This document shows positions 4,408-7,633 of a stretch of 24,032 nucleotides of DNA, in pieces. The notes under the pieces were generated by a model. The model ran no database searches. It was not told where the DNA came from and saw only the letters and a list, made by a program, of their open reading frames with translations. Source of the DNA: a virus; IMG/VR virus record IMGVR_UViG_3300023210_000221, positions 1 to 24,032 of that record; one strand, written 5' to 3'. Positions within the stretch are counted from its first letter, which is position 1. Each line of letters opens with the position of its first letter. A program made the position numbers and the translations under genes.

Positions 4408-4598
4408 TGGAAATACTTAGTTATAATTTAAAAACTGGTGTTTTATCCGTAAAGTATAATACTAAAACTGTATGGGAGTATTCTCCAATTAATGAAGATA
4501 CTTTTTATCAGATAATGGGGGCGAAGTCTTCTAATAGTAAAGTAAAAAATATACTTCGTAAGTTATCTATTGTTGGTGAAAATAAAGGAGTTATGTAA
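4407..4598 (+). CDS. Small KTSC-like protein
   Basis: A 63-residue protein starting at the ATG that overlaps the terL stop codon (TAATG), with GGGAG just upstream; an in-frame ATG at 4392 lies inside terL and is less likely. The sequence GVLSVKYNTKTVWEYSPINE, followed by a Phe-Tyr-x-x-Met-Gly-Ala-Lys-Ser-Ser stretch and a basic helix, resembles the small KTSC domain (originally noted at the C-terminus of some lysyl-tRNA synthetases and common as a stand-alone phage protein): a beta hairpin ending in YxY or WEY, then a helix with an Ala-Ser segment. Its role in phages is unknown. It sits between TerL and portal, both packaging-motor parts, and its stop overlaps the portal start. Confidence 0.55.
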   Translation: MEILSYNLKTGVLSVKYNTKTVWEYSPINEDTFYQIMGAKSSNSKVKNILRKLSIVGENKGVM

Positions 4599-7500
4599 TG
4601 AATTCAGCTGCTGATACAAAAATACTTAAAGAGATTCAAGATAGGCTGCAGAAAGCTATAGATGAAGATGACGAGAACAGAAAACTTGCTCTTGACGACC
4701 TTGAGTTTGTTGGAGAAGATGGTGCTCAGTGGCCTGAAGAGATAAAAAATCAAAGAATTTCAGATGGTAGACCTTGTCTAACGATAAACAAGATGTCTGT
4801 GTTTATTGACCAAGTTGTTGGCGACCAAAGAATGAATCGACCAAGTATTAAAGTTGTACCTGTTGACTCTGTTGGAGATCCTGAGGTGGCTAGAATTCTT
4901 GGTGGGTGGATTAAGCATGTTCAGCAGGTATCTAAAGCTGATATAGCTATAGACCACGGATTTGAGCACGCTGTGACTTGTGGATACGGAGCATTGAGAG
5001 TAGTTACAAAGTATGTAAACGATACTTCTCAAGACCAAGATGCTTTTATAGAAAAGGTAGACAACGCACTTGCTATTTATTGGGGCAAAGCACTTGAATA
5101 CGACCGGTCAGATGCTAATTACTGTATACTTATTACTGATATGGATAGAGATGAGTATAAAGAAAAATACGGAGAAGAAGGAATTGAATTTAATACTTCA
5201 AGTGGAGAATATGTTGAAGGTTGGTGTACGAAAGATACTGTAAGACTTGCAGAATATTTTGTAAAAGAGTTTAAAGAAGAGTGGGTGTATTTTCTTGAAG
5301 ATGGTAGAGCTGTAAAGGAACTTGAAGAGGAAGATGTAGAAGTAGGCAGAAGAAAAGTTAAATCTTACTCCATCATGTGGTATCTGGTTTCTGGCAGTAA
5401 AGTTCTTGAAAAGAAAAAATGGGTAGGGAAAAAGTATATTCCGATAATTCCTATTTGGGGAAAAGAGTTGAATATTGCTGGGAAGAGAAAGATTCGTGGG
5501 TTGATAAGGCATGCTAAAGACTCTCAGAGAATGTTCAATTACTGGAACGCGCTTTCACTTAATACATTAATTCCAACTCCTGAAGGATGGCTTAAAATGA
5601 GGGATATTAAGTCTGGTTATCAAGTATTTGACGAAAAAGGACAAGTCTGCAATGTCACAAATATAAGTCCTGTATATAAAAATCGAGAGTGTCTTGAAGT
5701 ATTGTTTGATGATGGTTCAGTTATTACTGCAGATAAAGACCATCTTTGGAAAGTAGAAGAAAGAGGTAAAAGAGTAAGTGCTGGACAGACTTGGGAAACT
5801 AAAGTTATTGCTACTAAAGAATTGGTAAGTAAAAAACATTTTATTTATCTTACAGAACCGCTTGATTTACCAGAACAAAAACTTTTAATTCATCCTTATG
5901 TACTTGGAGTATGGCTTGGAGATGGAAGTTCTCGTGAACCAAATTTTACACAGCATATAGATGATATGGAGGAAATTTCATCTTATATTAGATATTTTGG
6001 TTATGAACTTGGGGATTATATAGCTAGACAAGAGACTTCAGCTGTTCGAACTATTTTAGGTGTGAGGCATCTTTTTACTGAGTTAAATTTACTAGAAAAT
6101 AAGCATATACCGTATCAGTATGTAAGAGGCTCTAAAGAACAAAGGCTTGAACTTCTTCGAGGTTTAATGGATACAGACGGTTCAATAAACCCATCAAATG
6201 GAAGTTGTTATTTTACAACTACAAGTATAGAGTTAGCTAAAGGGTTTTCTGAGCTTCTTCATACATTAGGTATAAAGACTAAGCACTTTATTCGAGATAG
6301 AAGAGGGGAAAGTAATACATTAGCTAATGGTCAAGTAATTACTTGTAGGCAATTATCCCATGAATTTTATTTTACTGTTTATGAAGATATGAAAGTTTTT
6401 CATTTAAAACGTAAGTTTAAATATTTAGGTATGAGAAAAGAACAACGAAGACGTACTAAGAGGTTTGGAATTAAAAGTATTACTTCTATACCATCTGTTG
6501 ATGTTAAATGTATTACAGTAGATAGTGAATCTTCATTGTATTTAGCTGGAAACAGTATGATTCCTACTCATAATTCAATTGATACAGAAGTTATATCGCT
6601 TCAGCCAAGAAATCCTTACCTTGTTACGCCGAAGCAGATTTCAGGGCATGAATCTCAGTGGAAAGAAGCACACAAGAAAAATTTCCCATATCTTCTTGTT
6701 AATCCTGACCCGCAGGCTCCAGCATGGCCTAAGAGAGAAACACCACCTCAGGCATCTAGTGGGATGATAGAAAGGATTCAAGCTACTGACCAAGAAATGC
6801 GTGATACAGTTGGGTTACAGAAAGCAGCTCTTGGTATGCAAGGTAATGAGAGAAGTGGTAAGGCTATTATTGAGAGAAAGAAAGAAGGTGATGTAGGTAC
6901 TTTTGCATTTATAGATAACCTTGCAAGGTCGATTGAACAACTTGGTAGAGTTCTTGTTGATGTGGCTCCTGGGGTTTTGGATACAGAGAGAATCGTTAGA
7001 CTTGGACTTGAAAATGGTAGTCAAGAATTTGTTGACGTTAATAAAGAGAGTGAAGAATTTGGAACAAAGAAAATATTAAATGATACATCTGTTGGAACAT
7101 ATGACGTTGTAGTCTCTGTTGGGCCGAGCTTTGATACACAGCGGTCTGAAGCAAGACAATCAATGTCGGAGTTTATACAATATTATCCTGACGCGGCTCC
7201 GCTTATTGGGGATTTATACGCTAAGGTAATGGACTGGCCTGGGGCGGAGGAAGTGTCTGAGAGACTTGAATTCCTTCTTCCAAAAGAAATAAAGGAAACT
7301 AAAGCCATTGAGGATGCTAAATTGAGTGGAGAACCGCCGCCTTCTCCACCCCCACCACCTCCGCCCACACCAGAACAGCAGATGGAAATGCAGAGTAATG
7401 AGTTGAAGTTGCAGGAAGGTCAGATTAAGCTACAAGAAAGTCAAGTTAAACTCCAAGACTCTCAACTTGAACTTGAAGAAAGTAAAATGAAATTTGAACA

Positions 7501-7633
7501 AGAGAAAGTAAAGCTTGAACAAGAAAAAGTTAAACTTATACAAATGCAACAAGATGTTAAAATGAAAGCTGTTGATTTTATTGGAGGAAGAAATAAAAGA
7601 AAGGAAGAAAAGAATGGAGAAGAAAATGGATAA
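4598..7633 (+). CDS. P22-type portal protein precursor interrupted by an intein
   Basis: A 1,011-residue precursor. The two exteins (residues 1-317 and 660-1011) join into a 669-residue portal of the P22 gp1 type, near the 725 residues of P22 portal. The portal is the dodecameric ring at the DNA-entry vertex and binds TerL outside and the gp4-like adaptor below. Family signs: an N-terminal helix with LDDLEFVGEDGAQWP, DGRPCLTINKMSVFIDQVVG, MNRPSIKVVP, and the junction KDSQRMFNYWN joined to SIDTEVISLQP. After the body comes a proline run (residues 913-925, eleven Pro) and then about 70 residues of heptad-like Leu/Gln/Lys/Glu helix, fitting the C-terminal barrel that extends into the capsid in P22. 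Start is set by AAAGGAG at 4584-4590 and a TAATG junction. The intein must splice out for the portal to work. Confidence 0.92.
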   Translation: MNSAADTKILKEIQDRLQKAIDEDDENRKLALDDLEFVGEDGAQWPEEIKNQRISDGRPCLTINKMSVFIDQVVGDQRMNRPSIKVVPVDSVGDPEVARILGGWIKHVQQVSKADIAIDHGFEHAVTCGYGALRVVTKYVNDTSQDQDAFIEKVDNALAIYWGKALEYDRSDANYCILITDMDRDEYKEKYGEEGIEFNTSSGEYVEGWCTKDTVRLAEYFVKEFKEEWVYFLEDGRAVKELEEEDVEVGRRKVKSYSIMWYLVSGSKVLEKKKWVGKKYIPIIPIWGKELNIAGKRKIRGLIRHAKDSQRMFNYWNALSLNTLIPTPEGWLKMRDIKSGYQVFDEKGQVCNVTNISPVYKNRECLEVLFDDGSVITADKDHLWKVEERGKRVSAGQTWETKVIATKELVSKKHFIYLTEPLDLPEQKLLIHPYVLGVWLGDGSSREPNFTQHIDDMEEISSYIRYFGYELGDYIARQETSAVRTILGVRHLFTELNLLENKHIPYQYVRGSKEQRLELLRGLMDTDGSINPSNGSCYFTTTSIELAKGFSELLHTLGIKTKHFIRDRRGESNTLANGQVITCRQLSHEFYFTVYEDMKVFHLKRKFKYLGMRKEQRRRTKRFGIKSITSIPSVDVKCITVDSESSLYLAGNSMIPTHNSIDTEVISLQPRNPYLVTPKQISGHESQWKEAHKKNFPYLLVNPDPQAPAWPKRETPPQASSGMIERIQATDQEMRDTVGLQKAALGMQGNERSGKAIIERKKEGDVGTFAFIDNLARSIEQLGRVLVDVAPGVLDTERIVRLGLENGSQEFVDVNKESEEFGTKKILNDTSVGTYDVVVSVGPSFDTQRSEARQSMSEFIQYYPDAAPLIGDLYAKVMDWPGAEEVSERLEFLLPKEIKETKAIEDAKLSGEPPPSPPPPPPPTPEQQMEMQSNELKLQEGQIKLQESQVKLQDSQLELEESKMKFEQEKVKLEQEKVKLIQMQQDVKMKAVDFIGGRNKRKEEKNGEENG
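5549..6574 (+). mobile_element. Class 3-type intein with LAGLIDADG homing endonuclease
   Basis: A 342-residue in-frame insertion, portal residues 318-659, with extein junctions Asn317/Ala318 and Asn659/Ser660. Block A is ALSLNTLIPTPEGW, starting with Ala instead of the Cys or Ser nucleophile. Block B holds DHLW with His382 and Trp384 at position B:12. Block F is VKCITVD with Cys638 at F:4, replacing the usual Asp. Block G is PTHN followed by Ser, with Thr657 at G:5. Trp, Cys and Thr at these places are the WCT signature of class 3 inteins, which start splicing from the block F Cys. Between the splicing halves lie two endonuclease motifs, VLGVWLGDGSS (Asp442) and LLRGLMDTDGS (Asp527), both with their acidic residues, so homing activity looks possible. 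No stop or frameshift breaks it. Confidence 0.9.

Follow-up and report, generated by a model that had tools for sequence, protein, structure and literature searches.

The window analyzed here, i.e. the whole 24,032-nt stretch of virus record IMGVR_UViG_3300023210_000221, contains an open reading frame encoding a P22-type portal protein, which is interrupted in frame by an intein with a LAGLIDADG endonuclease. The following features were distinguished (block positions of the intein and residue numbers of the precursor in brackets):

4598..7633, + strand: portal ORF with in-frame intein, 1011-aa precursor, P22-type (PF16510, E = 1.4e-167; phrog_156 portal, E = 1.3e-128)
4598..5548, + strand: N-extein, 317 aa, with the C-terminal end ...KDSQRMFNYWN (alignment with intein-free portals up to the junction)
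5549..6574, + strand: class 3 intein, 342 aa, with LAGLIDADG endonuclease (precursor residues 318-659)
5549..5551, + strand: Ala1, no nucleophile at position 1 (translation)
5732..5734, + strand: Asp62 (B:7), the usual class 3 residue (translation; counts in relatives)
5741..5743, + strand: His65 (B:10; precursor His382), invariant in alignments A1 and A4
5747..5749, + strand: Trp67 (B:12; precursor Trp384), W of the WCT motif, invariant in alignments A1 and A4
5897..5926, + strand: LAGLIDADG motif 1, YVLGVWLGDG, with Asp125
6137..6325, + strand: LAGLIDADG_3 domain match (PF14528, E = 3e-12)
6155..6184, + strand: LAGLIDADG motif 2, LRGLMDTDGS, with the invariant Asp208 and Asp210
6509..6511, + strand: Cys321 (F:4; precursor Cys638) in KCITVD, predicted first nucleophile, C of the WCT motif, invariant in alignments A1, A3 and A4
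6566..6574, + strand: Thr340 (G:5, T of the WCT motif), His341 (G:6) and Asn342 (G:7) (precursor Thr657, His658 and Asn659)
6575..6577, + strand: Ser at +1 (G:8; precursor Ser660), a conserved portal Ser and predicted second branch point
6575..7633, + strand: C-extein of the portal (second PF16510 stretch; tblastn to intein-free portals)

Translation of the intein (5549-6574) gives ALSLNTLIPTPEGW...GSVITADKDHLWKV...VKCITVDSESSLYLAGNSMIPTHN, followed by SIDTEV. When the insert is taken out, the motif KDxQRMxNYWxS, conserved in intein-free portals, is restored, and the joined exteins match (phmmer) the P22 portal (3lj5; E = 2e-41) and a gene 3 protein portal (7sfs; E = 8e-46). The PF16510 match places the exteins in the P22-type portal family, and in the alignment with P22 gp1 the insertion site falls between residues 334 and 335. 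The intein boundaries that had been proposed in an earlier note from the sequence alone proved exact. The GC content of the intein is 32%, compared with 39% for the portal exteins.

The published signature of class 3 inteins comprises Trp B:12, Cys F:4 and Thr G:5 (WCT), usually without a nucleophile at position 1, and Ser or Thr at +1 (PMC5222942; PMC3196547). With the block numbering of the intein set anchored on His65 as B:10, Trp67, Cys321 and Thr340 align with the corresponding residues of characterized class 3 relatives; position 1 is occupied by Ala, and His65, the C-terminal His341-Asn342 and Ser at +1 are all present, so that every residue of the signature reported earlier is borne out by the translation. 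The signature is not a product of chance, since H, W, C, T and N are invariant in 12/12 portal inteins of alignment A4, and W, C and T are kept in 173 of the 174 relatives retrieved, most of them by endonuclease-motif patterns and not by the WCT residues. The Asp at B:7, which had been taken for a departure from the common Thr, turned out to be the class 3 norm: it occurs in 150/174 class 3 inteins (141/161 non-portal and 9/13 portal), while Thr is found at this position in 10/15 class 1 inteins of the comparison set. Judged by these counts, Asp at B:7 is a further class 3 trait.

Position 1 varies freely among the portal inteins (Ala, Pro, Leu, Cys, Asp or His), which would be expected of a residue without a catalytic role; elsewhere among the relatives it is occupied by Pro, Gln, Gly, Leu, Arg, Asp, His, Lys, Met, Val or Ser. 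Some WCT inteins start with Cys1, mixing marks of class 1 and class 3 (L023, L024, L025 and L026), and others have Cys at +1 (L027, L068 and L076). An Ala1 intein in a DarB-like phage protein (L011) has Cys F:4 and Thr G:5, with Asn instead of Trp at B:12, and is either a class 3 variant or a relative outside class 3.

Single-sequence scans of IMG/VR and GTDB with the intein gave no match, nor did a random short-pattern search, and alignment scans were needed. In these, the best matches to the intein were portals; a scan with the joined exteins revealed close relatives, and a further scan was performed with the portal inteins. The later finds are slightly biased for Thr, because one pattern of the last scan included the terminal THN. 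Together with that of the window, 20 distinct portal inteins were identified, all with W, C and T (21 rows, L023 and L024 being near-copies). Hence the search of portals for further inteins at the same site, suggested by the earlier note, produced 19 others, most of them at exactly the codon junction of the window and four exactly one codon upstream. Three inteins originating from other metagenomes (L196, L197 and L206) are 57-59% identical to that of the window and are inserted at the same codon boundary. The four shifted inteins (L021, L022, L027 and L052) directly follow NYW or NYN/NFW, and their exteins provide a pair of adjacent nucleophile residues (Thr-Ser or Cys-Ser), one of them spare and available for a shift of the junction. 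Tentatively, and with more doubt than confidence, we consider that a class 3 intein lineage is dedicated to P22-type portals and moved by exactly one codon in some phages, in each case at a portal with Thr-Ser or Cys-Ser, where the spare +1 residue of the extein allowed the shift; the lineage may also have jumped between the portal and the terminase large subunit (TerL), as L025 (see below) would suggest.

The same site also occurs in an empty state. At least 22 distinct portals of at least 60% identity are uninterrupted at the junction (the closest, of L180, shows 84% identity), and the same group includes four occupied alleles. The codons at the junction are conserved (AAT/C-TAC/T-TGG-NNN, followed by TCN or AGT). 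Two LAGLIDADG motifs with acidic residues lie between the splicing halves of the intein, and Asp125, Asp208, Asp210, Lys185 and Lys289 of the endonuclease are conserved. Compared with the three relatives of 58-60% identity, the intein has dN of 0.22-0.36 and dS of 1.2-2.1 (NG86), which gives a dN/dS of approximately 0.2-0.3 or less, an approximate value because dS exceeds 1 and is near saturation. The intact LAGLIDADG endonuclease, the purifying selection and the empty portals point to a functional mobile intein, and the conserved endonuclease residues, low dN/dS and lower GC content fit an element that has been kept functional and mobile. Among the four closest phages the divergence of the inteins (57-59% identity) is similar to that of the portals (61-70%), and therefore an ancient insertion that was lost repeatedly is no less possible than recent homing. 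About three codons beyond the portal insertion site, the contigs of L193 and L195 break off; this is suggestive only, but the assembler may have met both occupied and empty alleles.

The nearest PDB chains are class 3 DnaB inteins (6rix, E = 1.7e-17; 6bs8, E = 2.5e-17; and 6riy; range to 8e-17), whereas the match to the class 1 intein gp41-1 (6qaz) is far weaker (E = 2.5e-4); a gp41-1 variant with grafted WCT residues (6riz) gives E = 1e-5. An AlphaFold2 model (74-row alignment; mean pLDDT 95.4), which covers the intein and five extein residues per side, shows a complete HINT and LAGLIDADG fold, whose overall Foldseek matches are bifunctional inteins of the PI-SceI type (TMq of about 0.74). 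The splicing domain of the model matches the class 3 DnaB inteins with a target-normalized TM of 0.85-0.90 over almost the whole target length, compared with a target TM of 0.57-0.58 for gp41-1 and 0.66 for Ssp DnaB.

A splicing-domain tree was built from 60 inteins, 15 of which belong to class 1 (from phages, archaea and actinobacteria), with no class 2 rows. All class 1 inteins are placed on one side (88/85), the 13 cellular ones being set off by a 98/98 branch, and the window intein lies with class 3, where it groups with L196, L197 and L206 (100/100) and, with weaker support, with the portal inteins as a whole. In a full-length class 3 tree the portal inteins and L025 constitute one clade (support 99). 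The placement among class 1 inteins named in the earlier note as evidence against class 3 was thus not seen; trees in which the window clade was attached on the class 1 side were not rejected by AU tests (p = 0.40 and 0.31), and these tests are weak because an unrooted early-branching class 3 position meets the same constraint. Because its constraint broke up class 1 as well, a third AU test (p = 5.6e-61) carries little information on the window. As the class 1-side trees are not rejected, phylogeny supports class 3 without proving it, and the weight of the assignment is carried by the diagnostic residues and the structure matches. Overall, the class 3 identity proposed earlier is supported by the WCT residues, Ala1, the nearest PDB chains, the fold of the AlphaFold2 model and the tree: the intein is of class 3 by every sequence criterion checked, with moderate support from phylogeny.

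We conclude that the insert in the P22-type portal of the window is very probably a class 3 intein that is both functional and mobile, and predict that it splices via Cys638 and homes into empty portals. According to the published class 3 mechanism (PMC5222942; PMC7664689), splicing of this protein would proceed as follows: (i) His382 (B:10) would assist the Cys638 thiol (F:4), and Trp384 and Thr657 would position it, for an attack on the Asn317-Ala318 peptide bond; (ii) the N-extein would be held on Cys638 as a branched thioester; (iii) it would then pass from Cys638 to Ser660 (+1); (iv) cyclization of Asn659, helped by His658, would free the intein; and (v) an acyl shift would join NYWN to SIDTE, yielding an intact portal. 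The LAGLIDADG domain is predicted to cut intein-less portal genes near the NYWx|S codons, and repair would copy the intein in.

It is very improbable that the element is instead a dead class 1 intein. Such a reading could draw on at least one class 1 intein (L014) that combines Cys F:4 with Thr G:5, and on the dead pseudogenes known among class 3-like inteins (Arth_1007; PMC3196547). Nevertheless, all catalytic residues are present, the WCT triplet with Ala1 is common to the three closest relatives and the triplet alone to all portal inteins, the dN/dS is 0.2-0.3, and the closest structures belong to class 3; moreover, an unspliced insert of 342 residues would sit in a highly conserved motif of the essential portal. 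Still less credible is a class 2 mechanism, in which Ser +1 would attack the N-terminal junction directly, without Cys638: Ala1 is common to class 2 as well, but that class was known only from KlbA genes (PMC3196547), and the full WCT motif combined with Ser at +1, where Cys is usual outside class 3 (PMC5222942), favors class 3, the tree containing no class 2 rows. That an assembly chimera joined the intein to the portal gene can be dismissed almost entirely, since, although the window is a single 24-kb virus record, the frame is continuous, the junction is clean, and this codon is also occupied, by an intein of 57-59% identity, in L196, L197 and L206, which stem from other metagenomes. All three explanations were rejected for the window intein.

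The class 3 splicing mechanism had been described in the earlier note as rare and the portal as an unusual location. The former is overstated: a survey from 2020 counted 1,701 class 3 inteins in nr, 82.5% of which had LAGLIDADG motifs (PMC7891396); the class is thus in the minority without being rare. The latter stands in comparison with P-loop ATPases (in 120/173 relatives the N-extein ends in GK at the junction), but insertion into portals represents a recurrent sub-lineage. Portals as intein hosts were already known, as six inteins were reported in portals of cluster C1 mycobacteriophages (portal group POG1190; Kelley et al., 2016; PMC5050341). A search for the C1 portal intein, aimed at its class, did not identify the portal gene; in two candidate genes of Napoleon13, no clear intein split was seen among the matches listed. 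No published case of a class 3 intein in a P22-type portal came up in a literature search, most subscription journals lying outside its range. Class 3 inteins recur at a portal location that has apparently gone undescribed; the location is new, the kind of element is known, and no new mechanism is involved. With it, the range of class 3 hosts comes to include a structural packaging protein that is not an ATPase, and a single gene offers naturally occupied and empty sites as well as sites shifted by one codon, in which homing, loss and sliding of an intein can be tested side by side.

Several observations concern terminases. L025 and L026 represent a WCT intein with Cys1 in the terminase large subunit (for L025 the extein was identified by reading of the sequence and not by a family search), and in the full-length tree L025 is nested in the clade of portal inteins, a position that hints at a jump of the intein lineage between TerL and the portal. 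Class 1-type inteins, with Cys1 and without Trp at B:12, are present in the TerL P-loop of the sister phages L185, L188, L195, L197, L222 and L236 (HG|CHA...HN or RN|[T/C]GKD). The TerL gene of the window is empty at that site (3105/3106), and L197 carries inteins in both genes, of class 1 in TerL and of class 3 in the portal. L007, a linear, unannotated 39.5-kb record deposited as a "plasmid" of Endozoicomonas sp. Mp262, encodes a phage-type terminase, in which a class 3 intein has Pro at position 1, as well as other phage packaging-like genes, and looks like a phage or prophage.

Among known systems, the class 3 DnaB inteins of mycobacteria (MchDnaB1, 6rix/6riy; Msm DnaB-1, 6bs8) share with the window intein Ala1, Asp B:7, the WCT motif, His-Asn and the fold of the splicing domain; however, they are mini-inteins located in a helicase, whereas the window intein possesses a full LAGLIDADG endonuclease and resides in a portal. 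The class 3 LAGLIDADG inteins of phage TerL (for example, those of Synechococcus phage B23, Mycobacterium phages Gaia and Halley, and L025; 32-44% identity) have a common architecture with it, including WCT, and are likewise placed in phage packaging genes, but usually at the P-loop GK. The class 1 TerL inteins of sister phages (L185, L188, L195, L197 and L222) occur in the same phage group, in the neighboring gene, and also contain LAGLIDADG, yet they start with Cys1 and lack both the Trp B:12 and the Cys F:4 that the window intein has. The inteins of C1 mycobacteriophages are similarly found in a phage portal.
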